Positions 10,675 to 60,882 of a stretch of 64,000 nt of DNA are shown piece by piece (position 1 is the stretch's first letter; every line of letters starts with the position of its first letter). This DNA comes from Haliotis asinina (Eukaryota; Mollusca; Gastropoda; Lepetellida; Haliotidae), in assembly GCF_037392515.1 (NCBI RefSeq), contig NC_090295.1, positions 12,605,001 to 12,669,000 on the forward strand. Reading direction: 5' to 3'. The position numbers and the translations under genes were made by a program. The notes below the pieces were generated by a model. The model was not told the origin of the DNA. It made no database searches and was given only the letters and a program-made list of their open reading frames with translations.

Positions 10675-10968
10675 TGGCTGTTCACAAAATTCAATTTTGT
10701 TACCACGTACTGTCTGAAGAATATGTTTATCAGATGTTAATTTCTACCACTCATCGGAAAACAAGGATAATCTACCAGCTAACCGCTGTTCACCCTTTTC
10801 ACTGCAAGCTGATATTTCACCCACCTCCTCTACATCTTTGGTTTCCTCTTGTCGTCTCGACGCTGGAATCTGTCCATGTTGGGGAAAGGTGGGCGAGGAG
10901 ATTGTAGCTGTGGGTGATGCCCTAAAAAACGACCCCCTCTGCCACGAGGTCTAAACATACTCTGCCTC

Positions 10969-21785: not shown

Positions 21786-22810
21786 GTTGTTACATCGTAC
21801 AACGTACAGACAACTTCTGTGTCAGCACGTGTCGTATGTTTTGTAAACATTGGTGTGTAGACAGTCATTGGCTGAATGATCAAACACGGGTCATGTGACC
21901 CAGGGCGATTGGTTACCTCTTAGCTTGCGCACGACGCCAACCAATCGGTGGGCAGAACAAGCTGACCCAGCGGGAGACGTGTCAAATATAGTTCAACCGC
22001 ACTATAGACACGAAATGGACATTGTTTCTATTTTGACTTCGTTTTAATGTTTCTGACTTTTCCGCATTTTGAAAAATGTGAAATATTCCTCCACATGTAT
22101 TGTCACAAATATTGTGACAGTTTTTATCCCCGTGTTTAGCAGAGATTTGCTTGACTTTAGCGTGTTTGTGTTTTGTATGCTTCTCGTCTGTTCAACCAAC
22201 TCGAGACGGTCAACTAGTTCAAATGATTACGAAGAGTCAAGTCTACTGGCTCTTCATATCTAGTTATTTCTAATTCACATTCTCCCTAAACCATTGAGAG
22301 CACGACTCTTGCTCTCTTTGTATTGCATTAGTTTCCAGTTGATATATGCTCTTCTTGTTTGATCTATCTATGGCCAAGACTGACGTGCCATTGTCTCATC
22401 CCCTCAAAAATGTCGGGATTCGTTTTTGTGTTTTATTCTTACGTTCTTTTCTTACTATCAAAACTAATCTCTAACGAATACGGCATTCTACATATCACGT
22501 GTTCTTTTTATTTGAAAACCACAGGCAATCACATTATGAATTCAACATTCCCAAGCATTAGACACTCTAAAGCGGTGAACACTGTGAATGTTTTCCTTTA
22601 TTGTAAGTCTGTAAATATATACAATCACACATTTCGTATGCCTAGGCTCTCTGTCCATATTGTTCATGTAGACTTTTTTGATGGGAGTTGACCTAGTACA
22701 ATATCGACAGAGAATCGGGGTATTCCACTGTAAATTTTCCAATTCTTCAAAAAAAACCAAAAAAAAACAAACAAACAAACAAATTAGATCTAAATACTTA
22801 TTTCCTTGTA
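21786..22810 (+). other. LINE inter-ORF spacer with CCAAT-box cluster
   Basis: About 1 kb without a coding frame starting at ATG. Near 21865-21945 it has several CCAAT motifs on both strands (cattggctg, gattggtta, ccaaccaatcgg) and further on an A-rich run (22748-22782). It may be an internal promoter or leader for ORF2, or a sign that ORF1 and ORF2 belong to different copies. Confidence 0.4.
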
Positions 22811-32270: not shown

Positions 32271-32780
32271 CACACGTTTGAACATTTTTCCATACTGCTT
32301 TCTCAATTTAAGTAAAACCTAGCCTTCTTATGACCTTCTAAGTATTGTATAGGTTTTCATCTGTGACTATTCTACCTTTCTTAAGTACATTCCAAATTGT
32401 AACATGCGTTAAGCTGCATTCAGTGTCAATACCATAAAAAGTGAAAATTTCAGGATTTCTATTTAGCAGCACTACCCTTTAACTGTAAAATCAGTCAAAA
32501 AGTAGAATTTAAGCAAGACCCAAATATCACATCACTTGAGATCTTCAAAGACCATTTCCATATATAACTAGAGCTCAGTCACGACCTCCCAACTTGCTCA
32601 GTGGTATTATCATGGATTCAAGGGGTGTGAATTCCTGTGACCTATACGCAGAAAATTAACAATGGACGCAACAATATTTAACAGCACATCCACAAGGATG
32701 CATAAAAAGTCCAAATACTTTTTGTAAAAATTTCAGTCAAATGAAAATAAGTAGTCTCTGAGTCTGCAACTATGCGGGTT
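32271..32780. other. no gene recognised
   Basis: Spacer before the 74-bp array, with no coding signal. Confidence 0.4.
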
Positions 32781-41050: not shown

Positions 41051-41549
41051 TTACAGCATTATTACAACATAATCTTAATAATGATATCTAATTGTTTGGG
41101 ACCCCCATTTTGTAATCCAGGACCCCAGAAAATTTGGAATATGAGTACCAGGTACCCTGTAATATAGGTCTCAAGGTAAATCCCTGAATATGCAATGAAT
41201 GTTTTCTCTGTTTCAAAAATAGACTGCTAATATGTCCTCCTAGCATCATCAATCAGGGCTCATGTTTTAACACTTTCACAAAATCTAGTTCTTTTTTCAT
41301 TCCATTCAGTCTCAGAAAGAAGGTTTCTTGGTCTGATCATGTCCCAAGCACTCGTTGCCATAACACCAAACCAAACTGAGGCTCAGGCAGTCATATGCTC
41401 ATCATGGCTGTGTAACTGTCTAGATGTTTGGTTCTTTTGTTACAAGTCAGTTGTACATGGAAAGACTGTTGTATTGCTGCAGAGAAAGCACACTCATTAA
41501 ACAAACCTTTCAAAGGCCACATCATTCAAACTTAAACTATTCTGAGACA
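41051..41549 (-). other. presumed 3' UTR of the SLC2A gene
   Basis: Sequence between the transporter stop codon and the 74-bp array. I found no AATAAA on the minus strand here, so the transcript either uses a variant signal or runs into the array. Confidence 0.4.
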
Positions 41550-44500
41550 TTAAAATTCTTTCTGTATTGATCCTGATGTGTCTAGATCAGGTGACAGTAC
41601 TTCCACATCCTTGATGTGAAGTTTATCTATGTTGTCCTTGAAAAGGTGTGTGATCTCCTCAATCGTCTTGCCCTTCGTCTCTGGTACTTTCAACATCGTG
41701 AACAGGAAGGACAGTAACAGCATGACAGCGAACGGAACAAATGAATAAACACCAATGGATTTCTGCAAGAGATAAATTTACAGTAAGAAAAACACATGCA
41801 TAGTTTAACAATTCACAAAGTAATTTGTAAAAGCCGCAAGAATTATAGATGTGATGTGATTGAATGACTCTACTGTCAGACGAGCTTAAGAATAATGCCG
41901 ATCAGTCCTTTGAACCTGTGAATCTGAATGGTGGTGCAGTCCACTTTACTATTAAATTCTCACTATTCTACTCTCACTGTTCTGGAATGGGCTCATTTGC
42001 TATTTTGTGGTTGGCGATTTCCAGACACAACCAAACACAACACTTTTCGTGTTTAACGCTAAAACGAAATACCAAAAGGTTCATTTCTGTCCTTGTTTAT
42101 GTTCTCAGTTATTAACATCAATCCATTCATCCATCCATCTAGACATTCATGTCCGTCTGTTATATTTTCTTAATTCTAAATAGTATAAATTCAGCACATA
42201 GCTGCCATGATAATATCTTAATTGCAATTACGATTTCAAACATGCAACATTCAATCAAGACAACCAAAACCTGACTGACATAAAATTCTTGGATTTTGAA
42301 TATTATACCAACACCCCAGCCTACCTGCAGTGTGGGGAATACCAGACCCACGACACAGTTGGCCGACCAGTTGACGAGTACTGCTGTACTGACAGCCGCT
42401 GACCTTGGACCCTGAGCGAACAACTCTGCCACAATCAGCCAGGGAATGGACCCTGAGAATAATGAACTTTCTCATTAGGTATTTTGTTTATGATTACAAA
42501 AAGTCTGGACAATGGAAATAATCCCCTTCTACATTCTCAAACAGTTCAAATCCTTAGTTATTTCCACAAATTCAGATCGTTTTGCAATAAGATCTTTCCT
42601 AAATACCACTGATTGAGATCCAGCATGCATGGTTTGGAGGGTGGGTGGGTAGAGACTGTTTGGTTAATTCAGTGAAAGAATAAGTTACATTCTCTCTCTC
42701 TCTCTCTGTGTCTCTCTCTCTCTGTGTCTCTCTCTCTGTCTCTCTCTCTCTGTCTCTCTCTCTGTCTCTCTCTCTGTCTCTCTCTCTCTCTGTCTCTCTC
42801 TCTCTGTCTCTCTCTCTCTCTCTCTCAAGTTTAATCAAGCAAGGATGTGTTTGGGTTCAGAATGTTTTGTAAACCAGGGCAAATGACCTTAAGAGAGTAA
42901 AGACTACTTTTATGACACGATGATGTAATTATGAAAGAATAAATTAACATGGTATTTGATGTTTATGCTTACTGAACTACTTATCGAAAAGTGAAAAATA
43001 GCAAAGAAAGATAACCCTGAAAAATTTAATGGCTACACTTTTAGCAGATATAAAATGAAAACCTAGTTTATTTGCACTTTGAAACCATAATCAGAAATGA
43101 TCTAATAGCCCATGAACAAGTAAAATACGATTATTTGATTTCCTGAAATGAGAACTGACTTGACCCGGGTGTCAGGCGATGTGATTTTTTAACCCCTGTA
43201 AACACATCAGGCCTTGTGACGCACGTGTGTAATACAGATTAATGTTACACATATTGATTCTGTCTGACTGATTTCTCCCAGCACACATTACCTGGTCCGA
43301 CTGCAAAGAAGATGATGTAACAGATGACGGCCACAATGCACAGGTAGGAGAGCCATGACACTTGGTGCTGAAAAGAACATAATGGTCTCCATGAGTGTTT
43401 TGTTTGTTTGTTGTTAATGCTACATTTTGCAATATTCAAGATATAAGATGGTGGTTGGTAAATAATCGGGTCTGGGATTCTGTGATTCTGTGATTCTATG
43501 ATCAACAGCATGAGCATCAGTCAACACAAATGATGACATGTGTCAAACATGTCTGGGTGTCTGATCCCAATAGTGGCCTCTTATGACAGACATGGATTGT
43601 TAAAGCTGGATCTAATGCTAAGCTGGATCTTCAGGGATCGGACAGCAAATAACCAAGTCCGGACCAGAAAATCCAGCGATCGTCATCATGAGTATTTATC
43701 TATGTAACTGGGATACGATGACATGTGTCAACCAAGTCAGCAAGCCTGACCACCCAATCCTGTTAGTTCTAACGACAAGCATGGGTTACTGAAGATCAAT
43801 TATCAAGCTAGATCTTCACAGATGCCCACATAAATGAAGCCCATGATTGTTTGTACTGACTAACTTCATTGTCTGCTGTTGGTGGCTTCACTACTAGATA
43901 GATTACAAACACAAAATTAATCAAATCAAACCAAATGCTATGTCTTTCATGGGGTGGTGTAGCAGCGTAAAAAAGCTGCATAAAACTCACTCACTCACTC
44001 ACTCACTCACTCACTCACTCACTCACCTCAAATACAAGAGCCACAGTGAGGATGACAGTGAAGACAAACATCCCTCCTAACCCCAACAGGAGCAGGATGC
44101 GCCGCCCTGCCCTGTCAATGATCAGAGCTGACACAAATGTCATCAATACATTCACTATGGCCGATCCCAGTGTTGCAAACTGTGAGTTTTGCTCAGACAA
44201 CTGAGCTGATTCATATATACTTGTTGAGTAGTATATCACCTGTGGATGTAAAAAGATAAATGGTAGATCAGGTCATAGTCAGGTGAACTGCATGGAAGTT
44301 TTTCCTGTGTTCGGTAGCTGATTATCAACATATACATGTATCTTTGATATCGATAACTGTTGACTGATTATCAATCAATTCTTGATGAATATTTGAAAAG
44401 TAACTTTGAGGTTTTATTTTCTTGTTATTTCAGGCTGTACTGGCAATATTTCAGCTGTATGGTGGCCGTCGGTAAATAATAAATATGAGGTACAGGCAAT

Positions 44501-47500
44501 CCAGTGATTAACAGCATGAACATCAATTTATGCAGTTGTGATATGATGAGAACAAAATCAGCAAGCCTGAGACCTCAATCCTGATAGTCGCCTTGTACAA
44601 CAAGCTTGGGGTTTTCTCATAAGTGAGTAAAAACAGATTTAAGTTTGGCCCAGAAGGAGACTTTCTATGCATGAAACATGGACACTGGCCAGCTGAAGAA
44701 CCGGATCTTCATGGTACTTGAGGTTATGACAGGCATTACATCTGTCACAACTGTCAATGATATGATGGTGCACATATATACTACTGGCATAACAACTTGT
44801 TATCAATGTTTTGCATTCACGTGAAGATATTTTTAATGTATCATTATTTCCATAAATCATCGTCCACCACTCAATATTTTATAATGGGGATAATTAATAT
44901 ATCTTTTCACACCTCATATAGAAGTTATCAGGCAGCACTAAATGAAATCAGAGGAACAGAGTTAGGTTGGTCGGTTGTTTAACTCCACATTCAGCAATAT
45001 TACAGCTGTATGGCGGTGGTCTGTAAATCAAGCCAGACAATCCAGAGATCAACAGCACAAGCATTTATCTATTTATCTACAGAACTGGGATATGATGACA
45101 TGCGTCAAGCGAGTCTGACCACCCGATCTCGTAAGTCGCCTCTTAAGACCAGCTTAATTGCCTTTTATGGCAAGCATGGGTTCATGTTAGTATAAATTGT
45201 ATGAAAATCCTTACAGCATTAATTCCTGAGAACTGCTGTGTCAGCTGTAGGACAACGCTGATGGTAAGTGGGATGCGGAGTTCATTGTGTAGAAACAGAT
45301 GTGATATCTTGAACTGAAAAAATACATTTGTCACACATGATAAAATTTTATAAGCAAAATAACCATAATAATAGTCAGGACACTTTTAATATATTAATAC
45401 TTTCACATAATGATGTTTTGAAAGTCATTTTCAAGACAACATATATTTGTTCCAAAAATTACAAGAGGAACAAAAGGAAATTCCTCTAATATATCAAAGC
45501 ATTAAGTTAACATTTTCAGGATCAAGATTGATGGGAAATGGGGCTTAGCATCATATTCAAGATTATTCCCCTCATTTTGACAAGTGGGTGGGTGGGTGCG
45601 TGCATGCATGTGTGTGTTTGTGCATGCGTGAAAGTCCTTACATCAGATTGTTTCTTTTCATCAGCTTTTTCCAAATTCATCTCTTCAATTTCATCCTCTA
45701 CGTCGTATGACTTCCTCAGCCACATCAGCGCTGTAAACAACATCAGTGACTTTCAAACAATATCAGAATCATTAAAAAACATGTAAATTTTCTGATAAGA
45801 TTGATATTCCATACTTATCCTGATTCATGCTTATTGCTCACCTCCCTTCTCCTTTCGATGGTCATGTGGAGACTTGAATGGGTTTCAGTTCCCTGAAGTG
45901 ATCGTAAAATCACCCACCAGACTAGCCTCCCTTTGCCTTTCCAACCAAAGCAGTCCCACGTGACCAGAGCCAAGCTCTCATTACGCCTTACAGTGAAGAA
46001 CGTAATGGCAGAGGAGGGACTGTTAGGAGGGCTTTATCTCATGAGTTCTTACGGTTGTTTCATCCTTGTTGCTCGTTTTGTCCCAGTTAGCACTGCAAGC
46101 TAAAGTTGTATGGTGGCCGATTGGCCTGTTCTATCATGCATCCATGTGTGTGGCATTTTACTGGGCCATTGAGATACTGTGCATTGCATTCTCTGGCATT
46201 CATTCTGTGCATCTGATACTGGCCTTCATGGCCTTCACAAACATGGTCAAAAGCTGGCCAGTGCCCATGTTTCATCTATAGAAAGTTTTGAGAGAACGTC
46301 TCAAAACCTTATCAAAATGTGAGAAAGGTGAACCCATCATAACATGACAACCAGAGATGAAAGATAATGGCATCTGTAGTGGACTGTAGACCAAACTAAA
46401 GTGCAGCTTTAAGCTTCATGGATTCAGCAGCCTGCTTTTCCCATTATGGATACCATGACAGACCATGAGAAAAACGGCAGGATTGAACTAAACTTGACTT
46501 TGGAGGAAAGAAATGGGTAAAAATCGCATGTCGCACCTCTCAGGGGGAAACAAGGTGACAGTTGCCACCAGGAACATAGTACAACCCTTACAAAGTCAAA
46601 ATACATCTACAACAATGTAATAGCACGGCTTCAGTCTGTTACCAATGGAAAATCTCAGATTATATCTGTTTATATGATAAGGAAATCTAATACAGTGAAA
46701 GCTCACTAAACTGGCTTTCATTGGGACTGTCAAAAAATGCCGGTATAGGGGGCATGTCGGTTTAGAGAACTTTGATTGAACTGACTGGACTAGGCACATT
46801 GACATGGCAAGTGACTGAAGAATTGCGACACAACAGTTAATTCCTGTTGACACGTGTCACTTACCAACTTAACTCACCTGCTCAGGCCTAATCCTCTCTC
46901 ACAGACTCTTAAAGAGGTGCTCTCAGATCTTTGCACATGATCTAAGAGGGGCAAAAGGGGTAACCTAGGGGCTAAAGCATTTACTTGTCGCTCTAAAGAC
47001 TCAGGTTCGATGCCCCACATGGGCACAATATGAGAAGGTCAATTCTGGTGTTACCCACCGTGATATTGCTGGAACATTGGTAAGAGCAGAGTAAAACAAT
47101 ACTCATTCACATGATCTCAGAGTAGAATATCACTGACCTTCCTTGGCACCCTCCGTATCCTCCCGAGACAGCATCAGGAAACGTGGACTCTCGGGGCAAC
47201 AGGTCAGTGTCAACAGCTGGAACACTACAGGTCCGCAGGTCAGCGCTGAAACAAACATGTTTACTTCTACTCAGTGTCTTTTTTAATCTTTATTTTCCTT
47301 AGTACGTGAGGGGTTGGGTAGCCTTGTGGATAAATAGCTTGCTTTTCAAGCCGACAGCCTGGGTTTGCTTCCCATCATGGGTGCAATGTGTGAAGCCTAT
47401 CTCTGGTGTCCCCTGCAGTGATGAAGATAGCTAGAAACAGCTTTATTGCATGGTAAATTGTAAATAAGCCTGGATGAGTTAACCTATGATTGAAAAGAAA

Positions 47501-50500
47501 CAGGACCATTCCTACTAAACCTCTGGTGTCTAGTGGTTGGTTTTATGTGTTGTCAAATGAAGAGTGAGAGATTTGGTTGGTAGGTTGGTTTTTATGTGTT
47601 GTCAAATGAAGAGTGAGAGATTTGGTTGTGTTTTTATGTGTTGTCAAATGAAGAGTGAGAGATTTGGTTGGTAGGTTGGTTTTATGTGTTGTCAAATTAA
47701 GAGTGAGAGATTTGGTTGGTAGGTTGGTTTCATGTGTTATCAAATTAAGAGTGAGAGATTTGGTTGGTAGGTTGGTTTTATGTCTTGTCATATCAAGATT
47801 TGGTTGGTAGGCTGGTGTGTTGTTTGAAGTCAAACTTAATAATATTGCAGCTATTTGGCAGTGGTCTGTAAGTAACTGAGTCAGGACAAGATAATCCAGT
47901 GATCAACAGCATGAGCAAATCTATGCAACTCTGATATGATTCCATGTCAGCAAGCCCGACGACCTGGACCAATTAGTCACTTCTCAAAGCATGCATTTGT
48001 TGCTGTAGATCAATGAGAGGTGTAAAATTTCTCAAATCCCTTTCATGCATGTCATATCAATTTGATTATAACAAAATCAAACATAAACATTTCAAAAGAT
48101 ATTTGTGTGAAGAGGTATTTTTCATTCATATATTAATAAGCTGAAGTGGAGGAATCACAATAATCACACCTAGACATATTGGCCATAATGTCTGCGAACC
48201 AAGGATGAATTCCAATCCCAGCAGCTGAGATACAAACACTCCAGTTGTGATGGCCAGCTGATTGAATGTGCCTGCCAGACCACGCAGGGATATTGGTGCT
48301 ATCTCAGACAGGTACATGGGAACAATGCCAGTATTGACTCCTGGAACAGAGAAAACACAACACAATCTCAGACAGGTATATGGGAACAATGCCAGTGTTG
48401 ACTCCTGGAACAGTGAGAACATAACACAATCTCAGACAGGTACATGAGAACAATGCCAGTGTTGACTCCTGGAACAGTGAGAACACAACACAATCTCAGA
48501 CAGGTACATAGGAACCATTCCAATGTTGACTCTTGGAACAATGAGAACCTCAGCAGGTACAGATATGTATATAATATGTTAGAGGTTATTAAAACATATG
48601 AGTGAAAAAATGTAAAGTTAAGCAATCAGACTGGTCATTGCCGGTTTTCCTCAGACCAGATCCATGATGCAGTGGTTAAAGCGTCTGCCCTGAGAGCGGA
48701 AGGTTACAGGTTCGATCCCTGGACATGCCATACCAAATGATGTCGAAATATGGTACTTGTTAGTCACTGCCTGGTGCTAAGCATCCTTGGTACAACAAGG
48801 AATGGTTGGCACAGAGTCATGCTTCATGCTTAACAGAGGTATGGTATCTCAGTGAGCTAGCACTACAATACCAGTTAATTCTGGGCAAGTACAAGCAGCC
48901 ACATATACACACGCAGCTTGTCGTCATATGAGGAAATGTACTCTTAAACTCAGTTTCACCTCACCTGATCTTTTATCATAGCTTGTCCTTGGATCTTTTA
49001 TCATAGCTTGTCCTTGAACAAGGTTCTCTTTAATGCCTTGTTGTTTGTTTGCTGGTTTGTTCATTGTGTAATGTTACACTCAGCAATATTCAAGCTGGTT
49101 TCTGTTTGTACATAATCAAGTCTGCCTAAGGCAGTCCATTGATTGGCATAATGACTGTTGATGTACACAGTAGGGATGCAGTGACACATTTCAAACAAGT
49201 CAGCGAGGCTGATCTCCCAAACTCAGAAGTTGCCTGTTACAAGCATGGACTGTTGAAGATCAGTTACAAAAATCTTCATGGGTTAATACCATCTACTGAC
49301 TGACACAGCTCACAATATGAATCTGATGAGTTCACGACTCTATTTGCCAGTTCTTTCTTGAATTAATCGGTGAGTTCCACTCTACCTGCATTTAATCCAG
49401 AGATAAACCGACCCACGATGAGCATTTCGTAGGACTTGGCCATCTTGGAGAAGCCAAGAAGACCACCAGCTATCACTGCAATAACATTGTTCCTCAGCAG
49501 AGCTCCCTTCCTGTATGGAATCAAAACAACTGAAATGCTGACCAAAACACATGATGATGCAGTGTCAAAACATCATCAACAACCTAACATAAACTTCCAG
49601 GTGAGTAACAAAAGATGACGTTTTTTTTCCAAAATGGTTCTGTAACTACTTTAATTGGCATTTAGAAGTTGGCATGATGAAGAGGAACAATTCTTATTGA
49701 CAGATAACTTCTTTTCACAAGAACCTTCAGTAATGTCATCACACTGTAAATCAACCTCTTTAAGTGTATGAACTCACATACCTTTAATTTATTCTCTATG
49801 TACATAATGTGTAGAGTGTTAGTGTTAGAGTCCATACCAAAATGTGGCATCTTTTACAACAGCGAAGTTGCCTATCATACAAATTGGAAATTTTAACAAT
49901 AAATTGTATATTTATATACCAATCCTATCTCACATCTTGTAGTCTCTCTCTTCAGTTCGACCTGCTGAAAATATAAATCTTTGGCCTCACTTGCCTGTCT
50001 CCATATCAGAATGCCTAGAGAACTTCCTGGAAAGCATGGTGCACATACCTGGACCTGCTCACGTGACCATCTTACCTCAATCATCATCACTCTTATTGCA
50101 ACGTAAATAATCTGAGTAGTGGGTAGGCCAAGCAAGCATTCATCACGTCAGATAGGATAAGTACATAAATATGCTAAAGAAAAAATGTTAAAACTTCCAA
50201 ATTATTAAATTTATCCTGTATCTCGATGGTGAGTCGCAGAATACCCTTTTCAGGACAGTGCAAACAGCAGAAGCAGTGTTGTTGGAAGTCAACTGGAGAT
50301 AGTGCTACAAAAGGAAGGCCTGTAACTTGCAGCTCCTAAGCTTATATGGGTTCTCCAAACCCCATGGTAAATTAAGTACAACGACTCCCAGGGAGATAGG
50401 TGCTCCTGAGTGAAGTGGACTTCAAATGCAACCTTAGCACAAAATGAAAGGCCGTAACTTTTGATGAGTAAAACTTGCCAAGTCATGATTTACAGACATT

Positions 50501-53500
50501 TACAGATTCACTTACACAACTGCTCTGCAGAGTAGAGGTAAGTACACTGGAGTGGTAATGATGTAATGATAACTACTGCGCGAGCATAAGGAGTCCGAAC
50601 AGATGTAGTTGTTGGACATCAGTCACGGAGAGGTCTCTCATAGAGTGAAAGAGAACATTGTGTTGATTTGCTAAAAAAAACCTTCAATAATGGATGTCAA
50701 AGAACAGTTACCATGAACAGCCATCGCCAAAGCTAAAGATTGAGTCTAATCATGTATATTAGAGGTTGCTTGAGGAATGGTAGGCTGGCAAAGATGCTGG
50801 AATGGTAGGCTGGCAAAGATGCTGGAATGGTAGGCTGGCAAAGATGCTGGAATGGTAGGCTGGCAAAGATGCTGGAATGGTAGGCTGGCAAAGATGCTGG
50901 AATGGTAGGCTGGCAAAGATGCTGGAATGGTAGGCTGGCAAAGATGCTGGAATGGTAGGCTGGCAAAGATGCTGGAATGGTAGGCTGGCAAAGATGCTGG
51001 AATGGTAGGCTGGCAAAGATGCTGGAATGGTAGGCTGGCAAAGATGCTGGAATGGTAGGCTGGCAAAGATGCTGGAATGGTAGGCTGGCAAAGATGCTGG
51101 AATGGTAGGCTGGCAAAGATGCTGGAATGGTAGGCTGGCAAAGATGCTGGAATGGTAGGCTGGCAAAGATGCTGGAATGGTAGGCTGGCAAAGATGCTGG
51201 AATGGTAGGCTGGCAAAGATGCTGGAATGGTAGGCTGGCAAAGATGCTGGAATGGTAGGCTGGCAAAGATGCTGGAATGGTAGGCTGGCAAAGATGCTGG
51301 AATGGTAGGCTGGCAAAGATGCTGGAATGGTAGGCTGGCAAAGATGCTGGAATGGTAGGCTGGCAAAGATGCTGGAATGGTAGGCTGGCAAAGATGCTGG
51401 AATGGTAGGCTGGCAAAGATGCTGGAATGGTAGGCTGGCAAAGATGCTGGAATGGTAGGCTGGCAAAGATGCTGGAATGGTAGGCTGGCAAAGATGCTGG
51501 AATGGTAGGCTGGCAAAGATGCTGGAATGGTAGGCTGGCAAAGATGCTGGAATGGTAGGCTGGCAAAGATGCTGGAATGGTAGGCTGGCAAAGATGCTGG
51601 AATGGTAGGCTGGCAAAGATGCTGGAATGGTAGGCTGGCAAAGATGCTGGAATGGTAGGCTGGCAAAGATGCTGGAATGGTAGGCTGGCAAAGATGCTGG
51701 AATGGTAGGCTGGCAAAGATGCTGGAATGGTAGGCTGGCAAAGATGCTGGAATGGTAGGCTGGCAAAGATGCTGGAATGGTAGGCTGGCAAAGATGCTGG
51801 AATGGTAGGCTGGCAAAGATGCTGGAATGGTAGGCTGGCAAAGATGCTGGAATGGTAGGCTGGCAAAGATGCTGGAATGGTAGGCTGGCAAAGATGCTGG
51901 AATGGTAGGCTGGCAAAGATGCTGGAATGGTAGGCTGGCAAAGATGCTGGAATGGTAGGCTGGCAAAGATGCTGGAATGGTAGGCTGGCAAAGCAAAAAG
52001 TCAGTGTAGTCTGCGAGACTTTGGCTCTGGAGGTGGTTGACAATGGAATCAGCTGGCCCAACAATGGTGGCCAACAGGGGAATTGAACACACACGATCCA
52101 GCTGTCCTGGCAACTAGGTGTATGCTATGCTACAAAGACCCGACAGAGACCCAGGAAAGCATGCTTCTTATCATCACGATTGACATAAAGTCCTTGAGGC
52201 TGAGATATACGAGCTGCAGTAGCCATCACTACAAGGAAAAAGGTTTTAAACTTCATTTAAAGTCCCAAGCAGTTGTAGTGGTTCAAACTGAGTAAATAGC
52301 AGCCAGATACATGGCCCTTGAGTTTCTTTATAGACCGTAAGTGCTAAAGAAACATACTATCCTTACATAGGTTCGAAAAATATTTATCATGCCAAAACAA
52401 AATATTGCCACCATCAGAAGTATATACCCATTTCTTCACTGGGTTGTGCTCTCACATTTCCAACCCCATGTTGAACAATTACTCACATGAAATAATTTTT
52501 ATTCAACATTTTAAGCGCATCTCGTGGTATATCAGACCCTACTTCGCCTCCATTCCCCCTTCCAGTTTCCGGTTCAATGGAGTGAAGGAACAGGAGGGTA
52601 TTATTCCACATTTAATACTTACAGTTACCTCCCCTGCTACATTCACCCATTACGCCAGAAGTGTTTTATATAGAATCAATGTTACGAAAATTCTAACAAT
52701 AGCAACAACAGATAAGACAAATAAATTTCAACTGGTTCATGATAAAATTAGGCAATATGGTTTTTCTTTTTAATTTCTGCTTATTCTTGTTCTGTCACTC
52801 CGTTCAACCGGAAGCTGGCAGGGGTAATGAAAGGCGAAGAATGATCTGAACACCACACTTGGCGCTTAAAATGTTGAATAAAACATATTTCATGTGATTA
52901 ATTATCAAGCATGGGGTAGAAAATCTGAGAGCACAACCAAGTGAAGAAATGGGAGTGTACTTTTGATGGTGGCCATATTTTATTTTGACATGAAAGATAT
53001 TTTTCGATCCGAAGCGCTGGAAGTATGTGGCCAACCTTTGCTCACTTTGCTTGCATATAACAAGCCTTGTCATATTCTCTATGCTGCACAGCTCCTTTTG
53101 CGCTACAGTTTGCCTGTGCACAGGTATCCTCAAAAAGGCCAGCATGGAGCACACTGGTATGAGGGCAAGTGAGGCCAAAGATTTTTATTTACAGTTTGTC
53201 CAACACAGCAGGTCATATTGAATCGAGAGAGAAGTACAAGACATGAGATAGGATAGGTTCCTTTTCAAAAGGGTTTCTGAATACCAGCTTCAAACTACTG
53301 ATGTAACCATTGATATAAATGGCTTGGATGGTTCTCATATACATACTGATGTGACAGCTTAACCTGTTGTCGCAAATAACAGACAAATTCCATCAAATGA
53401 TCTCAGATCTACTACAGATGCAAGTATAGGTTAAAAACAGGACTCAGTCACCTTAGTGCAGAGATTTGTTTGTGAAAGGTGCCATGAGACCCTATCCACA

Positions 53501-56500
53501 ATGAGTCCAAAGCACTACACTATTCATAAGCCAACGGTCAGTGTTTCAAAATATTCTTAAAAGCCACTTGCCATAGGGCAAGTGACTTCAAGAAAGTAAC
53601 TTGTCCTGACTAACTTTCCAGTTACCCTGATTTTGTGACACAATGTTAATGTTTCATGTTTATGTTTACTGAACTATACATCAAAGATTTGAAAGAACGA
53701 TAACTGTACTTTATTATTAATGCAAAATTTCATAAATACATTACAAGCAGATATGAAATGAAACCCAAGTTTATTTGCAGTTTGAAACTATAAGTGGAAA
53801 TTATCTAGTAGCCCATGGAAAAGTAAGAAGATATTATTTGTCCCGGGCAACGGGCGATGGGATTTTGGAAACCCTGCCAACGATATGTTGTAATGCTACT
53901 ACAGCTTTGTGGAAAGGTAGCCAGATGTACAAACCTGCCATATCTGTTGGCCCAGTATCCAGCACTGACACCGCCAATCATGCCCCCGACTGCATATATG
54001 GCCACAGTGATGGACCACAGTAGGGTCTTCAGTGAGGGCTGCATGTATTCCCCATTCCGATCAAAGTAGGTTTCATTGTAGAACTCCTGAATAATCTGAG
54101 AAAAGCAATACAAGAATTCATTTGGATGACACGATCAAGAAACATTGTGAGCAGAGTGTATTGAAAGCCAACACAAGCATACAAAGTTACATAAACTGCT
54201 AATATTCCCCAAACAAAAGCTTTATCTACTGTTAAGAACAGAATGAACCAATTTCTTATTTTTCAAAGTTTTCTGCAAAATTGGTGGCAAACAGAATGAG
54301 ATTACGCTGCTTTTAACAACATCCCAGCAATATCATGGTAGTGACAGAAATGAATTTCACACATTGTTCTCATGTGGTTAATCAAACACGGGTTTTCAGT
54401 GTGACGAGTGAACGCTTTGACCACTAGGCCAAATTCACACACACCCTTGTACATGTTGTAATCACTGTATTTCAGTGCACCTTTTCACTTTACACACACT
54501 CTCCTTCTTGATCAAGCTGCATACCTCTTCTGGAGAATTGACGACTCCTGTGTTGTAGCCAAACTGAAAGGATGAACCCAAAGTGATTGCTGCAATGGCC
54601 AATGCCAGATGGCTGTTGAAACCCTGCAACACAGTATATACATTCCCTCAAGAAATAATGTTGATTGATTGGTTGTTGTTATTTTTTAACACCACGCTCA
54701 GCATTTTTACAGCTATGCTAGTAATCAACTCTGGACTAGACAATTCAGTGGTCAACAGTATGAGCATTGATCTACACAACTGGTATACAATGACTTGGGT
54801 CAACAAAGTCTGACCACCCAATCCTGTCAGTTGCCTCTTACAAGAACATGGGTTACTAAAGACCAATTCAATTCTTCAATGGTACCAAGAAATAATGACT
54901 GAGAAATTCAATTAATTCAGTTAGACTTCAATTAAGAGTTAACTCTCATGTGAAAAAGTTAAAATTGAACCAAATTAGCAACTTTTTTGATCGATCTGAG
55001 AAAAACAGCTATTGATGTTGTGATCAAGGACTCACTCATGCCAGTGTAACACAATGACATAAAGTACAAGGACATCCATAACTTCAAGTCATTTGGTACA
55101 ATGCATTTAGTCCCGTTTCTGACAAGCTGTCTTTACTACCATTCACAATCTGACATTTGTCCTCAGGGGATAGAATAATCATTTGTCAATATACTAGTAA
55201 TAGACACATTTGTAAGTCGCTTGATTATCATAGCAGTTGAGCTAGTTACTGAACATGGTTTACGCTGCTTTTAGCAATATTCCAGCAATACAGTGACACC
55301 GGAAATGGGCATCATGCACTGTACCCATGTGAGACTAACATTAACTGCTTGATCCGTGGCAAAACGAAAGTACAGCACTTCATGATACTGAAACTTAGTG
55401 CTGATGAATGTTTCATGCTCAATTCAATCTGTCTACAAATGAATACATGTGTTATGCAGAAGAAACAGCAAAATGTCAGAAATGTTATCAATTATACATT
55501 TCACTTTGAATGCGGTAACTTGCTTCCAACAGATACAGAATGCTATTACTAAGAATAGTAAGATCTGAACAGTACTGATACTTGCAGTAAAACTAGAAAT
55601 GCTATTGGTAATTCATCTACTAACTAAAATTACGAGAGAATACTAGTAAATAGATCATATCATAGTCACAAGTTCCATGCCTTGAATGATCATTGTTTTC
55701 TTTGATCAATAGACAACAGTCATGAAGGACCAATTTTAAGAGATAACAGTATTGTGTCCCTAAAACACTGATAACTAGTGGCCTTCAGTTAGCTGTAATT
55801 GTGTCAGTCACTGACCTTCAGAAATAATGTAAACTCTCTATCAGAAGAGATAACTGCATGTACATGTACTACTAATAAGGTCAGCTGCACACTTCATGAA
55901 CACTGACCTCAACCGACTGGCAGGAAAGCTTTGCTATAACTACAAATCTTGATTTTTCCTATTCTCAGACATACTTGTCTTAAAGGATATAGATTATTTT
56001 TCTGAACTAATTTTATCATTTTGAAGCAAACACCAAATTTCATTAATCCAACTGAAAATATATATGCTATGCATGACAGTATGTTTCATTCAAGAGGCAA
56101 CTAACAGGATGGGGTGGTCATTGAGGCTCACTGACTTGGTTGACACATCAATGGTTCCCAGTTGTGCAGATTGATGTTGATGCTGTTGATCACTGGATGG
56201 TCTGGTCCAGACTTGATTAATTACAGGCCACCACCATATAGCTAGAATAGTGCTGAGTGCAGTGTAAAACTAAACTTACTCACTCACTCATGTACTGAAT
56301 CTTTCAGGTAGTTCACTTACATCTTGAAACTTAAAACTAAATAAACTGGAATACAATGGATGTTTCAAAACAAAGTTGGAGTAAGCTTGGCATATTGCTG
56401 AAAGACTATTTATTTATGAACTACCGCAGACCTTGTTCAATGCACCAAAATGTGCACATTCACCATGTTAACTTTACATGTAATCCTTCTAAGAAAAATG

Positions 56501-57174
56501 CAACTTCTTAAAAACAAATGTCAAATGATGTTAATGTGGTCGTTTCTAGTGTGACATCATTTTGACCTCAAGTCACAAAACTGTAACGATATCAACAATC
56601 CTATCTCAATGACAAACACTCTAAACTTACGCACATGATGGGCAATTTGCAATGGTGGCTCCAATGAACTCGAACATTTCTAATATAAACAAACAACGGT
56701 AAGACTTCCACTTGTATCACCCCTAAATTAAAAGGCGAGGAAGCATTTCTTTGAGTGGCATTTCTAGAAGTTGAATGTATATACCTTTGATTTTGTTCAG
56801 ATACCATGAACGAAACATGTTATCAGATAAGGAATATACATTCAGATGATACATAATTTGGCAGGTATAATGTTTAAGGGGGCATACTGGCGGAAATGTT
56901 CCCAAACATCAAACATACCCCCAAAAATCATGTACACAAATGCTGCATAGTGCTGCTGGTGCAATTTCTTGCTTCTAGCTGCATGTTTATAAATGCATAC
57001 TTCGATGCATTTTAAAGAATAGTATTGCAATACAGCAATTCAACATTTAACAGCTCAATTCATAATACGTACATGTTTCGTTTTGGCCTTGCCAATTCTA
57101 TAGTCATCATATTCTTTTGCCCCTTCGCCATCACTCGAAGACAGTAAAGGTTTGCGTTCTTGCCCGTCTGCCAT
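41550..57174 (-). CDS. SLC2A: facilitative glucose transporter, SLC2A/GLUT class I-like, 12 exons
   Basis: Moves hexose down its gradient across the plasma membrane; 12-helix MFS sugar porter. Exons: 57174-57073, 54623-54525, 54095-53935, 49510-49386, 48340-48170, 47245-47138, 45730-45642, 45313-45215, 44239-44027, 43367-43292, 42452-42325, 41762-41550. All have AG/GT borders and compatible phases, giving about 527 aa (human GLUT1 is 492). Landmarks in order: cytosolic [27 protein letters not shown]; glycosylation site NET in the first loop; NRYGRKG across exons 3/4; [17 protein letters not shown] with the conserved Gln; [25 protein letters not shown] (QLT where class I usually has QLS); [25 protein letters not shown] with the cytochalasin-site Trp; [19 protein letters not shown]. 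The tail is longer than in GLUT1. Regulation is suggested by the E-box pair at its start. Confidence 0.93.
41864..42324 (-). other. intron 11 of the SLC2A gene
   Basis: Non-coding. No element of note except AT-rich tracts. Confidence 0.5.
42690..42828. repeat. (CT/GT)n polypyrimidine microsatellite
   Basis: tctctctctctgtctc-type repeats of about 135 bp in intron 10. In the minus-strand transcript this is a purine tract (GAGAGA), and it creates a spurious Arg/Glu frame. Confidence 0.95.
42880..43200. repeat. dispersed repeat, copy 1
   Basis: Similar in the same orientation to 53580-53885: shared blocks are tatgcttactgaac/tatgtttactgaac, atgaaaacctagtttatttg/atgaaacccaagtttatttg, gcactttgaaacc/gcagtttgaaact and tctaatagcccatg/tctagtagcccatg. 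Estimated identity is 70-80%. Family unknown. Confidence 0.6.
43440..43620 (-). repeat. SINE family B copy
   Basis: agatggtggttggtaaataa, gggtctgggattctgtgatt, gatcaacagcatgagcatca, gatgacatgtgtcaaacatg and a gacagacatggattgttaaa block. Moderately diverged. Confidence 0.7.
43628..43812 (-). repeat. SINE family B copy, tail-less
   Basis: ataaccaagtccggaccaga, aaatccagcgatcgtcatca, acatgtgtcaaccaagtcag, caagcctgaccacccaatcc and gcatgggttactgaagatca. It lies directly beyond the previous copy. Confidence 0.75.
43955..44026 (+). repeat. SINE tail with (ACTC)n microsatellite abutting SLC2A exon 9
   Basis: tagcagcgtaaaaaagctgc, then about ten ACTC units. On the minus strand the first base after exon 9 begins a GTGAGTGAGT series, so the microsatellite supplies or has merged with the exon 9 splice donor. 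Confidence 0.75.
44425..44620 (-). repeat. SINE family B copy, diverged
   Basis: ggcaatatttcagctgtatg, gtggccgtcggtaaataata, gcaatccagtgattaacagc and caagcctgagacctcaatcc. Intron 8 of the transporter. Confidence 0.65.
44978..45192 (-). repeat. SINE family B copy
   Basis: ccacattcagcaatattaca, gctgtatggcggtggtctgt, gatcaacagcacaagcattt, gtctgaccacccgatctcgt and ttatggcaagcatgggttca. It lies about 20 bp from the exon 8 donor. Confidence 0.8.
46955..47105 (+). repeat. tRNA-derived SINE (family A)
   Basis: gtaacctaggggctaaagca head, aggttcgatgccccacatgg B box, tctggtgttacccaccgtga and a tail gatattgctggaacattggt. It lies within intron 6, about 30 bp from the exon 6 donor. Confidence 0.85.
47318..47445 (+). 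repeat. tRNA-derived SINE (family A), tail-truncated
   Basis: gggtagccttgtggataaat head, gggtttgcttcccatcatgg B-box region, gcaatgtgtgaagcctatct and ctggtgtcccctgcagtgat. The shared tail is absent. Confidence 0.75.
47530..47806. repeat. minisatellite, about 48-bp unit, 5-6 copies
   Basis: Units contain agagtgagagatttggttgg, taggttggttttatgtgttg and tcaaatgaag, with small length differences. It lies in intron 5. Confidence 0.9.
47825..48010 (-). repeat. SINE family B copy
   Basis: acttaataatattgcagcta, gatccagtgatcaacagcat-type block (aatccagtgatcaacagcat) and ccatgtcagcaagcccgacg. Diverged. Confidence 0.7.
48303..48556 (-). repeat. four 64-bp copies of the SLC2A exon 5 acceptor and exon start
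   Basis: The unit starts ctcagacaggtacatgggaa and includes gttgactcctggaacag. In gene sense each unit has a pyrimidine-poor acceptor GTTCCAG|GAGTC followed by the first 38 bases of exon 5. Copies begin at 48303 (the functional one, running into exon 5), 48367, 48431 and 48495. The outermost is most diverged. The unit length is not a multiple of three, so use of an upstream acceptor would shift the frame and end translation soon afterwards. Confidence 0.93.
48655..48945 (+). repeat. tRNA-derived SINE, third family (C)
   Basis: The tRNA-like head has agtggttaaagcgtctgccc and ggttacaggttcgatccctg. The body differs from family A: atatggtacttgttagtcac, cctggtgctaagcatccttg, ggtatctcagtgagctagca and a tail with gggcaagtacaagcagcca. 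It resembles a SINE body that I recall as widespread in molluscs; the name is not certain. Confidence 0.7.
49065..49292 (-). repeat. SINE family B copy, diverged
   Basis: gttacactcagcaatattca, agctggtttctgtttgtaca, ggcagtccattgattggcat, aacaagtcagcgaggctgat and caagcatggactgttgaaga. Confidence 0.75.
49912..50055. repeat. inverted-repeat arm, left (pairs with 53120-53258)
   Basis: aatcctatctcacatcttgt, agtctctctcttcagttcga, cctgctgaaaatataaatct and ttggcctcacttgcc recur as the complement at 53120-53258, about 80% alike. The arms enclose 3.2 kb of intron 3, including the 25-bp array. Confidence 0.6.
50776..51993. repeat. perfect 25-bp tandem array, about 48.7 copies
   Basis: The unit is aatggtaggctggcaaag followed by atgctgg. 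I see no sequence difference between units. Because 25 is one more than a multiple of three and the complement has no stop, all three minus-strand frames stay open across the array (about 410-455 codons), giving a repeating peptide that includes [20 protein letters not shown]. It lies in intron 3 of the transporter. It is not a gene. Confidence 0.98.
52355..52520. repeat. inverted-repeat arm, left (pairs with 52850-53030)
   Basis: aggttcgaaaaatatttatc, ccaccatcagaagtatatac, ccatttcttcactgggttgt and ttattcaacattttaagcgc are complementary to 52850-53030 with about 85% match. The enclosed 330 bp has no gene. MITE-like or a broken DNA transposon. Confidence 0.75.
52850..53030. repeat. inverted-repeat arm, right (pairs with 52355-52520)
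   Basis: gcgcttaaaatgttgaataa, agaaaatctgagagcacaac, aagtgaagaaatgggagtgt and agatatttttcgatccgaag mirror the left arm. Confidence 0.75.
53120..53258. repeat. inverted-repeat arm, right (pairs with 49912-50055)
   Basis: ggcaagtgaggccaaagatt, agcaggtcatattgaatcga and gacatgagataggatagg are the complement of the left arm. Confidence 0.6.
53580..53885. repeat. dispersed repeat, copy 2
   Basis: Partner of 42880-43200 in the same orientation. Each copy lies about 50-90 bp downstream of a transporter splice donor (exons 3 and 10). Confidence 0.6.
54295..54432 (-). repeat. tRNA-derived SINE (family A)
   Basis: acgctgcttttaacaacatc, ccagcaatatcatggtagtg, the complemented B box (atcaaacacgggttttcagt) and A box (aacgctttgaccactaggcc). 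Intron 2. Confidence 0.8.
54680..54872 (-). repeat. SINE family B copy
   Basis: taacaccacgctcagcattt, tctggactagacaattcagt, gtcaacagtatgagcattga, gtctgaccacccaatcctgt and acatgggttactaaagacca. Intron 1, about 60 bp from the exon 2 acceptor. Confidence 0.8.
54873..55254 (-). other. intron 1 of SLC2A, nothing recognised
   Basis: AT-rich intronic sequence. Confidence 0.5.
55255..55352 (-). repeat. tRNA-derived SINE (family A), truncated
   Basis: acgctgcttttagcaatatt, ccagcaatacagtgacaccg and gcactgtacccatgtgagac. The tRNA-like head is mostly lost. Confidence 0.7.
55353..56090 (-). other. intron 1 of SLC2A, nothing recognised
   Basis: Open frames here lack domain or splice support. Confidence 0.45.
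56091..56292 (+). repeat. SINE family B copy
   Basis: caagaggcaactaacaggat, ggggtggtcattgaggctca, ctgacttggttgacacatca, gatcactggatggtctggtc and a tail agtgctgagtgcagtgtaaa followed by actcactcactc. Confidence 0.85.
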
Positions 57175-57187
57175 TTTGACAGCACAA

Positions 57188-57204
57188 CACGTGATTGTCA
57201 CGTG
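57188..57204. promoter_or_regulatory. paired E-box fitting the carbohydrate response element (ChoRE)
   Basis: CACGTGATTGTCACGTG is two perfect E-boxes with a 5-bp spacer, exactly the consensus CAYGNG-N5-CNCRTG bound by the glucose-sensing Mondo/ChREBP-Mlx factors. The right half extends to GTCACGTGAC (57197-57206), the CLEAR element recognised by TFEB/MITF, and overlaps a TGACGT half-CRE. It lies 14-30 bp upstream of the transporter ATG. Function is inferred from the motif and from the gene it adjoins. Confidence 0.7.
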
Positions 57205-57411
57205 ACGTTAAATGTATAGCAATGTTCTTTGGGTTTATAAACTTATGAAATCCTTTGTTCTGATTAAAATTTTATATGTTAAGTATATTAAAATGTTATA
57301 TGTTAAGTATAAAGTCGAAATTGTATCTCTAACAGATTTTCTAACGTATCATTTAGGTAAATAATATTTCCTTTCTTTTCTATTGTTGTTCATGTTTTCA
57401 ATATAACCCAA

Positions 57412-57420
57412 ACCGGAAGT
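57412..57420 (+). promoter_or_regulatory. ETS/GABPA-type site upstream of POLR2D
   Basis: ACCGGAAGT, a strong ETS-family consensus that is frequent in TATA-less housekeeping promoters, 20 bp before the POLR2D ATG. Confidence 0.6.
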
Positions 57421-57439
57421 TTCTCAGATTCGTGTCAAC

Positions 57440-60400
57440 ATGGCGAGTGCGGGGATGGCGTCTGACCAGCAAGAAGAAGATGCCTCCGAATTACAGTTCC
57501 CAAAAGGTAACCACAGAAAACATTTGGACCAAACATTTAACAGGGGTGAAGATTTAACTGGGTATAACCGAAGAACCCAGTCGCAGTAGACGGCTAGATT
57601 TAAGAACGTGGTGTTCTGGTCCACGATAATGACTTGATGATCATGAGGGTACTTTACGTTTATTTGGAGCAAATCCTTTCTTCAAAAATAGGGTATAGTA
57701 CATGCACTACAGACTGTGTTAATCGTAAGTTAAGAGTTGAAAATATCAAAAGGCACCACTTCAATACTTAACTAAAGCATACAACGTTTCAGAAGAAATA
57801 ATGAATGGTTTTCAAGTTCAGCTTCAGAAACTTAATCATTCCAGACAGACATTGAGACAAGGTTATGACTATCTCTCACTGTATTAGAGTCCCGTGGAAA
57901 ACTACACACCCAATTTTCACTGATTAAGTGCTCATAAAAACCATTATACACTCCTAAGTCAAAGATTTGTCATCAAGTAGGACTAGACTAAACTAAACAG
58001 ACTAATAGTATATCATAATGATGACTGACGATGATCCAAGACCTTATGCTTACTCACTGCACATGCAACTATTCAGTTAAACATATCTTCCATTTAGCAT
58101 TTAGTTTCAAACACTTCCCAACAACACTTCCCCTTTAAAAATGTGGTTGACATTTTGTGTGCAAGAACACTAATGGTTTGGTTTTAAACAGTTTCATCCA
58201 TTTCCACCTATTTATTCTCCACTATTTTAATATTTATAAAATCATTATGAACGCCCTTGACCTTTAATTTTGTTTCAACTAATCAGCATTGATAAGGAAA
58301 CATTTCAAGATTTCAAGATTTCATTTTTCCCACCAAAAGAGAATGTTTTACGTACGGTTGTCACTTTTGATGTTTTGTTTTTATTTTTGTTTTACATTTG
58401 TTTAATGGTCAGCCACATGTATCGGTTTTCCCAACATACTTAAAGGAGTGACACCATGCCATACTAATGATCCATCTTTGTTTCAGAATTTGAACATGCT
58501 GAGACTCTGCTGATATCAGAAGTACAGATGTTGTTAGAACATCGGTATGTATGTCATGGGAGTGTTGTGTATCAGCATCATCAGTCTTGTAAGACTGTAG
58601 TAGTATATGGGACTAAGCTTTTGCAGTTCATTTAAGATGCAATTAGATTTAAGTCGCCACTCAAAGAATTTAACTAAATTGTTAGTATGATGATAAGATG
58701 AAAAAAATTTGTCGAACGTATTCTGTAGCTGCTTTGACTGTGCCTTTTGTGACACTGAGGTTTCATGGTTCTTTTTTCTTGTGGTGCTGGAATAGTGGTG
58801 CCAGGATAAGATTAAGAACCCCGTTCCGGTCAGAACTGCACTCATATCAGTCTTTAGGATTCCACTCATAATGTCTCCTTGAAGCTTCTAAACGTGGTAG
58901 AAGGTAATCTAAGGGACTTTTCATTATTTATGGCTAATGTGGTAATGATGATTTTTATTGAGAAGCATATCAGTGACCTACTTTAAAATGTATATATAGT
59001 CGTCCCTCGCAATAACGCAGATCTTGGGGTCCATGGACACCCCCCACGTTATTAGACACCTGCGTTATTGCTCACATGAATATAGGTCGAGTGAAAGACC
59101 CAGCAACAAGAGCGTATATGTACATTGCATTTGGTACACGTGTGCATGTGTATAAAGTAATTGACCTCCCCTGCATGTCATGAACACGATGAACTGAATC
59201 AATGACCCCTTGTCCCCCTTCCCATAAGTTTTAAGAATAATCTCTAAATATTGCACTGCTTGCAACTGAAGTAGATTTTGGAAGTGTTCTCAGGCAAGGC
59301 CAGCAGGGTACACCTTAAAATGGCTATCTGATCCTGTGTTTGTTGTGTGTTTGTGTGTGTGTGAACAAAGCAGCAGCATCACATTGGTTAGATGACCCTG
59401 TGTTAGTGTGCAGCAAGTGTTGTTGTTAAAATTGCAAACTGACCCAGTGTTTACATGTATACAGAAAGCAGCAGAATGAGAGTGCTGAAGAGGAGCAAGA
59501 GCTCTCTGAGGTGTTCATGAAGACACTCAACTACTGCTCCCGCTTCAGCAAGTTCAAGAACAGAGAAACCATTGCCGCTGTCAGAAGGTAGACTATAATT
59601 GTTCTATGAGCTGTTGTTAAAGACTCTGATGGATATGTCTTTCCTTTGAATCAATTCTCTGAAACTAGTGGAAGACGAATGAAATACTTTGTCTAGTCTT
59701 TATCATGGCAGGGTGTGACTATGAAACTCCCAAAAATTTTAGCCAGACCACAGAGCTGGTTAGATGTAAAACTGGCCAGCCCTGTCCAAAAGTTAAACTT
59801 ATAATTAAATTAAAACTTGTTAAATATTGAAAAAAAACCCTAATACTAACTTTACGTACACATCTAAATTTTAACCCGACCCGTTGGGCAGGGGAAATGA
59901 GAATCTGGCAGTCCGTTTTGAAAATAGCCCCTCCACGGCGGTCGGGCATGCTGACCATGGTCATTATACAGGTGTCAAGTTATCATTAGTGAATTTGTTT
60001 TGCAATTTAATGAAGAAGGATTCAATATTTATAATTCAGTTGTTTGACGGGCCCTGAGATATTGTCCATGTTTTTAGCCCAACCATCAAAACTCTTTACA
60101 TGCAGTAATCAGTCAAAGAAAATGACAGTAATCTGAGTGAGGTTTTCGGTTTGAAAACAAACCCAAAATAATATATAAGCAGTTTAGTTTCTTTTCTCTC
60201 TGTGTATATATCTGTTTATGGATACAAAAAGTAAAAGTAGGTTGTTGATAAGCTTGAAAGTAGTGGACGTAGTTTTGGTGAATTCATAAAATGCTTCAAA
60301 TGCCCTTTGGTGTATTATTATTTTCTGCTGCACTATTATTGGTAATCTCTAATAGTGATAATGAGATCAACTATGCACATTCCTTTGTTCCAGTTCTCTA

Positions 60401-60547
60401 ATGCAGAAGAAGTTACACAAGTTTGAACTTGCTGCCCTGGCTAACCTTTGCCCTGAAACATCAGAGGAAGCTAAATCTCTCATTCCCAGGTACTGTGCCA
60501 GAAGGAAAAATGAATACAAACAGGTTTAAAAACCAATTTACATGCTT

Positions 60548-60578
<31 letters not shown>

Positions 60579-60882
60579 TCTGTGTATTTCAAAATTGTTG
60601 TTGTGATTGCGATTAATGCAGCAGTTTTAATATGATATTCTTTTCTTAAAAGTTCATTTGTTAGCAATATATTTTACATAAATTGTTAGAGAGTCTGAGA
60701 TAACAATGCCTTGTAAACATTTTCTCATTTTAAAGAAGGAAATGCAATGTGTACAGGATAAATTTGTATTTAAAATAATTTTAGTTATTTCTTTTTTTTC
60801 CAGTTTGGAAGGAAGGTTTGAGGAGGATGAGCTGCAGCAGATATTAGATGACATCAAAACAAAGCGAAGCTTTCAGTACTGA
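57440..60882 (+). CDS. POLR2D: RNA polymerase II subunit RPB4 (POLR2D), 5 exons
   Basis: RPB4 pairs with RPB7 to form the stalk of RNA polymerase II, which binds emerging RNA and helps initiation. Exons: 57440-57506, 58487-58544, 59465-59587, 60394-60489, 60804-60882. All have GT-AG borders and phases that join correctly, giving 140 aa (human 142). The N-terminus [20 protein letters not shown] is variable in the family. Conserved blocks are [20 protein letters not shown], a stretch with [58 protein letters not shown] and the C-terminal KTKRSFQY. This is near-identical to the animal ortholog, so assignment is secure. It shares its promoter region with SLC2A. Confidence 0.97.
57507..58486 (+). 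other. intron 1 of POLR2D
   Basis: Nothing recognised in it. Confidence 0.6.
58545..59464 (+). other. intron 2 of POLR2D
   Basis: Contains a short palindrome at 59009-59071 (separate entry) and otherwise nothing recognised. Confidence 0.6.
59009..59071. repeat. short palindrome
   Basis: GCAATAACGCAG (59009-59020) and its exact complement CTGCGTTATTGC (59060-59071), with a third cgttatt in the loop. It may be the core of a dispersed repeat. Confidence 0.6.
59588..60393 (+). other. intron 3 of POLR2D
   Basis: Near 59880-59960 it has gacccgttgggcaggggaaa, faintly like the end of the dispersed repeat in SLC2A introns (cccgggcaacgggcgatggg). No other feature. Confidence 0.4.
60548..60577. repeat. 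(CAT)n microsatellite
   Basis: About ten CAT units in intron 4 of POLR2D. Confidence 0.95.

Follow-up and report, generated by a model that had tools for sequence, protein, structure and literature searches.

Does a pair of E-boxes lying just before the start codon of a glucose transporter gene serve the abalone Haliotis asinina as a nutrient switch? An earlier note on this DNA had proposed so: a glucose-sensing, Mondo-Mlx-type element at an SLC2A gene would make a feedback or feed-forward loop, and an overlapping CLEAR motif would add TFEB/MITF input. We analysed the whole stretch of 64 kb, called here the window, together with the genome to which it belongs (1.143 Gb, 159 contigs).

Sequence and position of the E-box pair

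The letters at 57188-57204 read CACGTGATTGTCACGTG, a 17-mer of two perfect CACGTG words with a 5-bp spacer, just as the earlier note had described. It was also right about the position of the pair, 14-30 bp upstream of the SLC2A ATG (A of the ATG at 57174), and about box 2, which extends to the CLEAR palindrome GTCACGTGAC. Box 1, unlike box 2, is not a full CLEAR 10-mer. The features of the pair and of the intergene around it are as follows.

57188..57193, no strand, E-box 1, CACGTG, palindromic, reading TCACGTGT in the SLC2A direction
57199..57204, no strand, E-box 2, CACGTG, 11 bp start-to-start from box 1, with ATTGT as the spacer
57197..57206, no strand, GTCACGTGAC, a perfect 10-bp CLEAR-type palindrome around box 2, single copy in the window
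57203..57207, plus strand, TGACG, which we take to be a CRE-like half site, overlapping box 2
57234..57241, no strand, TTTATAAA, a TATA-like palindrome about 30 bp toward POLR2D from the pair
57413..57419, plus strand, CCGGAAG, presumably an ETS-type site, starting 27 bp before the POLR2D ATG
57175..57439, no strand, head-to-head intergene of SLC2A (minus strand) and POLR2D (plus strand), 265 bp between the ATGs

The 64-kb window contains 17 CACGTG words, whereas 100 dinucleotide shuffles had a mean of 8.6 (sd 3.0). The perfect pair with a 5-bp spacer occurs once, at 57188-57204, and no perfect pair with a 6-7 bp spacer is present within the 64 kb. From 17 CACGTG words in 54,507 non-satellite bases, with independence assumed, 0.006 such pairs per 64 kb are expected by chance. 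The looser ChoRE consensus is CAYGNGN5CNCRTG, and the E-box pair is its single match in the window. Tandem E-boxes are also the mark of the E1-E2 element of CLOCK-BMAL1, whose spacer is 6-7 bp; this candidate was rejected because the spacer here is 5 bp and the window holds no 6-7 bp pair.

The SLC2A gene

The gene read away from the pair on the minus strand was modelled as a complete coding sequence of 12 exons, running from 57174 to 41550 and encoding a predicted protein of 527 aa. All 11 introns are GT-AG and the exon phases are consistent.

57073..57174, minus strand, predicted SLC2A exon 1 with the ATG and the N-terminus, ending in phase 0 just before the first conserved GLUT stretch
54525-54623, 53935-54095, 49386-49510, minus strand, SLC2A exons 2-4 of the spliced model
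48170-48340, 47138-47245, 45642-45730, 45215-45313, minus strand, SLC2A exons 5-8 of the spliced model
44027-44239, 43292-43367, 42325-42452, 41550-41762, minus strand, SLC2A exons 9-12 of the spliced model
41550..54623, minus strand, overall span of SLC2A exons 2-12, from the spliced model, Pfam and solved structures

The protein matches the Pfam family Sugar_tr (E 6.5e-136), and its nearest solved structure is human GLUT1 (E 3.9e-144), followed by GLUT3 and GLUT4. In this comparison, which was with solved structures only, it is a class I SLC2A, a full-length sugar porter nearest to GLUT1/3/4, and the earlier naming of the gene as an SLC2A glucose transporter holds. The first intron of GLUT1 is presumably at about the same place as the end of exon 1. 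Exon 1 (57073-57174) also encodes ERKPLL, which we take to be a dileucine-type sorting motif of the form [DE]xxxL[LI] and which would be in keeping with a transporter that cycles through endosomes or lysosomes. The glut1 qPCR primers given for Haliotis discus hannai (PMC7924355) differ from the window coding sequence at 2 of 22 and 1 of 22 positions.

Several repeats lie in and around the gene. At 48301-48548, the 5' end of exon 5 is duplicated, together with its acceptor site, in tandem 64-bp units (3.9 copies); the acceptor and the first codons are present in three copies, and the units could permit alternative acceptors. Intron 3 contains a 25-bp minisatellite at 50774-51993 (about 49 copies, 100% matches), in which all three minus-strand frames are open. 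Just downstream of the 3' end of SLC2A is an 8.3-kb satellite array at 32779-41051, with a 74-bp unit in about 112 copies (99% matches). Retroelement pieces are found at 10102-10743 on the minus strand and 22697-24833 on the plus strand, both with a reverse transcriptase, and the second also with an endonuclease-like match below its cut-off.

The genome search with SLC2A matched 20 other SLC2A-like stretches, on C15, C16 (at 48.2 Mb), C13 and C9, at 34-63% identity; 12 further rows were the window gene itself. Two 1.1-kb stretches on the 5' side of the C15 paralogues, which may or may not take in the gene starts, contained neither a ChoRE-type pair nor a match to the consensus, and CACGTG was found once in one and not in the other.

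The putative shared promoter region

The neighbour in the opposite direction is POLR2D, on which the earlier note is silent and for which the identity searches were run with a query protein lacking one serine.

57440..60882, plus strand, POLR2D (RPB4), 5 exons: 57440-57506, 58487-58544, 59465-59587, 60394-60489, 60804-60882

Within the 265-bp intergene, the two E-boxes of the pair are the only CANNTG words, and no CCAAT box was found in either direction. CpG observed/expected over 57000-57600, in 200-bp bins, is 1.08, 1.41 and 0.85, compared with 0.48 in the whole window; this undepleted CpG is the pattern as at an unmethylated promoter. If TTTATAAA serves SLC2A, transcription would start at about 57205-57212 and the 5' UTR would open with the E-boxes.

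Tandem E-boxes in the genome

Perfect CACGTG pairs with a 5-bp spacer were counted 401 times in the whole genome (backward-pattern control, 57), and those with a 6-bp spacer 221 times (backward control, 145). In the A..T inner-flank class, which includes the window site, there were 50 pairs with a 5-bp spacer (backward, 4) and 27 with a 6-bp spacer (backward, 2). The same 17-mer, letter for letter, is found once more in the genome, at C1:4237052 (L019), a locus with repeat-like ORFs.

Many of the 5-bp pairs lie in repeated DNA. We read 30 of the 50 sites of the A..T class (29 loci and the window), and 15 of the 30 had flanking DNA in common with another site read. Matches to transposase-like ORFs were found near 12 of the 30, with query ORFs picked by eye (L020, L021, L023, L030); among these 12, L023 matches only itself and L044 and L045 are weak (best E 1.8e-4). 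With the Pfam Tc3-type transposase, L030 scored above the cut-off and L021 just below it. The form CACGTGA-N3-TCACGTG stands beside transposase-like ORFs at L021, L030, L032, L038, L040, L041, L042, L044, L045 and L047. The E-box core is near position 3050 in each transposase-linked locus, and at L030, L040 and L047 the matched ORF starts 45-63 bp from the pair. CLEAR/ChoRE-like sites may be spreading here by way of mobile elements.

Of the 401 5-bp pairs, the first 50 listed include 18 whose spacer is GTTGA/TCAAC or GTCGA/TCGAC. CACGTGGTTGACACGTG, with the GTTGA/TCAAC spacer, seems to be carried by a second repeat family, and the flanks of L001 and L004 are alike. Extrapolated, about 144 spacer-family sites of the 401 and half of the 50 A..T sites come close to the excess of 180; in this estimate repeats were discounted among the 5-bp sites only, on the basis of the first 50 of the 401 sites and of the A..T list. 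On this extrapolation, most of the surplus of 5-bp pairs relative to 6-bp pairs could come from repeats. With repeats taken into account the excess is no longer clear, so selection on tandem E-boxes as a regulatory feature of this genome is not evident.

ORFs near the pairs were searched against Pfam at six of the 12 non-repeat loci, chosen by eye. They gave an intermediate filament protein (L027), a TIR domain (L028), a temptin-like protein (L025), a TNFR-type protein (L046) and no family for L022 and L037, whose ORFs look like transposon and LINE pieces. No sugar or lysosome gene was among the ORFs searched at these six loci, a sample by eye and not a survey. At L028, near position 3015, a perfect CACGTGACAGTCACGTG lies several hundred bp from the TIR-domain receptor-like ORF.

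Candidate E-box-binding factors

With the C-terminal region of human ChREBP as a query, matches were found on C1 (60% identity, query residues 80-134, E 1e-16) and C6 (47%, query residues 82-124, E 1e-6). The two loci are most simply Mondo and Mlx, in one order or the other. The Mondo/Mlx partners of a ChoRE are thus represented by exon matches, in which the matched stretches, and not whole genes, were read. The human TFEB bHLH-Zip matched two neighbouring blocks on C9, with 67% identity over 27 residues and 51% over 49 residues; they read ERRRRFNINDRIKELG and NKGSILKASVEYIRKL, and through them a MiT/TFE gene, as a CLEAR site would need, is represented in the genome. The search with Pfam DUF3371 gave no match here, and likewise none in any of 14 controls, so that it is uninformative. 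The USF bHLH-Zip matched C1 in two blocks (61% and 69%) and, more weakly, C14. Where matched, the stretches on C9, C1 (Mondo-like) and C6 have the look of intact exons, with the counted stops at their edges; in the C1 Mondo-like row two stops were counted, both at the edge of the open exon.

The genome would therefore offer at least three kinds of possible E-box readers, Mondo/Mlx-like, MiT/TFE-like and USF-like. With exons of these kinds present, a glucose-sensing route is possible; since several kinds are present, their presence does not choose between them.

Proposed function of the pair

We suggest that CACGTG-binding bHLH leucine-zipper factors use the pair as a tandem, promoter-proximal site in what would be the compact bidirectional promoter of POLR2D and the abalone-type GLUT1 gene. 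There would be room for two dimers side by side, 11 bp apart on the same helix face, and once bound these could raise transcription of SLC2A, and perhaps of POLR2D, depending on the nutritional state. Because box 2 is a perfect CLEAR palindrome, a MiT/TFE-type factor would be its most likely reader; competition would come from USF and MAX-network dimers, and Mondo-Mlx would be possible but not singled out. A tandem bHLH-Zip site acting in a nutrient-dependent way in a bidirectional GLUT1/POLR2D promoter is the best explanation that we can offer, and we hold it at slightly below an even chance. We infer the promoter activity, the position of the transcription start, the bound factor and the nutrient response.

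The pair is a real candidate for a bHLH-Zip (CLEAR/ChoRE-type) site, and there are mammalian precedents. One published account gives GTCACGTGAC as the consensus CLEAR motif of MiT/TFE factors (PMC9363479). As in CLEAR sites (TFEB, TFE3, MITF, HLH-30), box 2 is a perfect 10-mer; it would lie close to the start of the promoter, whose place is a likely one. A review describes TFEB over-expression in mouse muscle as accompanied by higher GLUT1 and GLUT4, reported there as TFEB-responsive and said to contain the CLEAR sequence (PMC9562866). The same review announces contrary findings for TFEB loss in cardiomyocytes (PMC9562866), which counts against the explanation that we prefer. The likeness to CLEAR sites is limited in that box 1 is not a full 10-mer. 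Nor do glucose transporters count among the classical lysosomal targets, though exon 1 of SLC2A has the dileucine-type sequence. Of the TFEB/MITF input that had been proposed, the CLEAR 10-mer and MiT/TFE-like exons on C9 stand; a USF-like gene is present as well. Against the explanation that we prefer there are also the paralogues, since at the 10 of 20 SLC2A paralogue positions tested none of the 50 A..T-class pairs lay within 1.8 Mb, and the few promoter coincidences to be expected in a genome of this size.

These coincidences are the ground of a strong rival to any functional reading, namely that two CACGTG words came to lie 5 bp apart by chance in a CpG-rich promoter, where a single box may work and the pairing is functionless. 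The genome density (401 per 1.143 Gb) corresponds to about 9e-5 pairs per 265 bp and, if 25,000 promoters of that length are assumed, to 2.3 in all of them. A pair is therefore unlikely at one named gene and is expected a few times near promoters. More would presumably be met in CpG-rich promoters, and scanning many motifs across many windows will yield some. Against chance, about 1e-4 pairs are expected at this one promoter, both boxes are perfect, and one has the full 10-bp palindrome. On balance we regard coincidence as somewhat unlikely.

A true ChoRE, at which a Mondo-Mlx heterotetramer would occupy both boxes when glucose-6-phosphate rises and so switch the transporter gene, was what the earlier note had in mind. 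The pair fits CACGTGN5CACGTG perfectly, its position and gene are suitable, and the ChREBP-like exons on C1 and C6 could supply the proteins. USF and MYC/MAX bind perfect CACGTG. Perfect boxes suit USF, MYC/MAX and MiT/TFE as well and are not specific to Mondo-Mlx, so that of the glucose-sensing claim the motif, spacing, position, gene and presence of candidate factors stand and the specificity does not. The perfect palindromes and the CLEAR 10-mer favour MiT/TFE or USF-type factors at least as much as Mondo-Mlx.

In the literature, ChREBP-MLX is described as binding tandem E-boxes five nucleotides apart, and endogenous ChoREs as having E-boxes that match CACGTGxxxxxCACGTG imperfectly (PMC11900861). 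The ChoREs of Txnip, CACGAGggcagCACGAG and CACACCgtgtcCACGCG, are given as degenerate and CCAAT-dependent, about 80 and 170 bp upstream of the start (PMC2791861). The window pair is like Txnip in having two E-boxes with a 5-bp spacer at a metabolic gene; unlike Txnip, both its boxes are perfect, the intergene lacks the CCAAT partner which the Txnip promoter needs, and it is possibly at or downstream of the start. A 2017 review counts Glut2 and Glut5 among ChREBP targets and gives the Slc2a5 ChoRE as not yet identified (PMC5331612). In Drosophila, the promoter of the Tret1-1 transporter is starvation-induced, and in the account given of it the Mondo-linked activin branch was not found acting on it (PMC8149124). 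Searches for ChREBP in molluscs (glucose transporter), in abalone and in Crassostrea returned nothing relevant by title and start of abstract; in one paper among the results the name stood only in the list of references. The stretches 5' of the C15 paralogues without a consensus match, and a 5-bp spacing not clearly enriched in the genome apart from repeats, also argue against a ChoRE. We consider it unlikely that the pair is one, and the feedback loop at this gene may be kept as a fair hypothesis drawn from the motif and its place.

The boxes could also belong mainly to POLR2D, or serve a bidirectional housekeeping promoter as a general core-promoter element. The head-to-head layout with 265 bp between the ATGs agrees with this, but the boxes are 14-30 bp from the SLC2A ATG and at least 236 bp from the POLR2D ATG, and an ETS-type site that POLR2D has to itself lies 27 bp ahead of the latter; we judge this quite improbable. 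Still more improbable, in our view, is that one 19-bp element, perfect both as a ChoRE and as a CLEAR site, is contested by Mondo-Mlx in the fed and MiT/TFE in the starved animal on the same bases, possibly where the transcript begins, and in this way sets glucose uptake directly at the only close GLUT1 relative found in the genome.

A transposon origin of the pair, such as other 5-bp pairs here seem to have had (half of the A..T sites read share flanks and 12 have a transposase-like match nearby), has very little probability. The window site has no flank or transposase-like match among the 30, and a genome search with 57176-57330 matched that stretch alone. A recent transposon origin of the window site thus finds no support in flanks, transposase-like ORFs or genome copies; this evidence bears on recent origin, and an old decayed insertion would be compatible with it. 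Least credible is an RNA hairpin in the 5' UTR controlling translation, rejected on folding energy: a stem between the two palindromes is possible immediately ahead of the AUG, but the 63 nt have an MFE of -16.8 kcal/mol (z = -1.18), 21 of 200 shuffles fold as well or better, and any perfect E-box pair would fold so.

Implications

If the element proves to be no nutrient switch, the 15 of 30 A..T-class 5-bp pairs found in repeated DNA are a caution: with half of those read in repeats, a ChoRE motif scan of this genome would return many repeats. If the contest between Mondo-Mlx and MiT/TFE were true, an invertebrate transporter would be under both pathways through one 19-bp element. If the pair is a nutrient switch, as under the tandem bHLH-Zip explanation that we prefer, it would extend the mammalian observations on ChREBP with Glut2 and Glut5 and on TFEB with GLUT1 and GLUT4 to molluscs, and the sharing of DNA between MiT/TFE and Mondo-Mlx could be tested on a short, mutable element.
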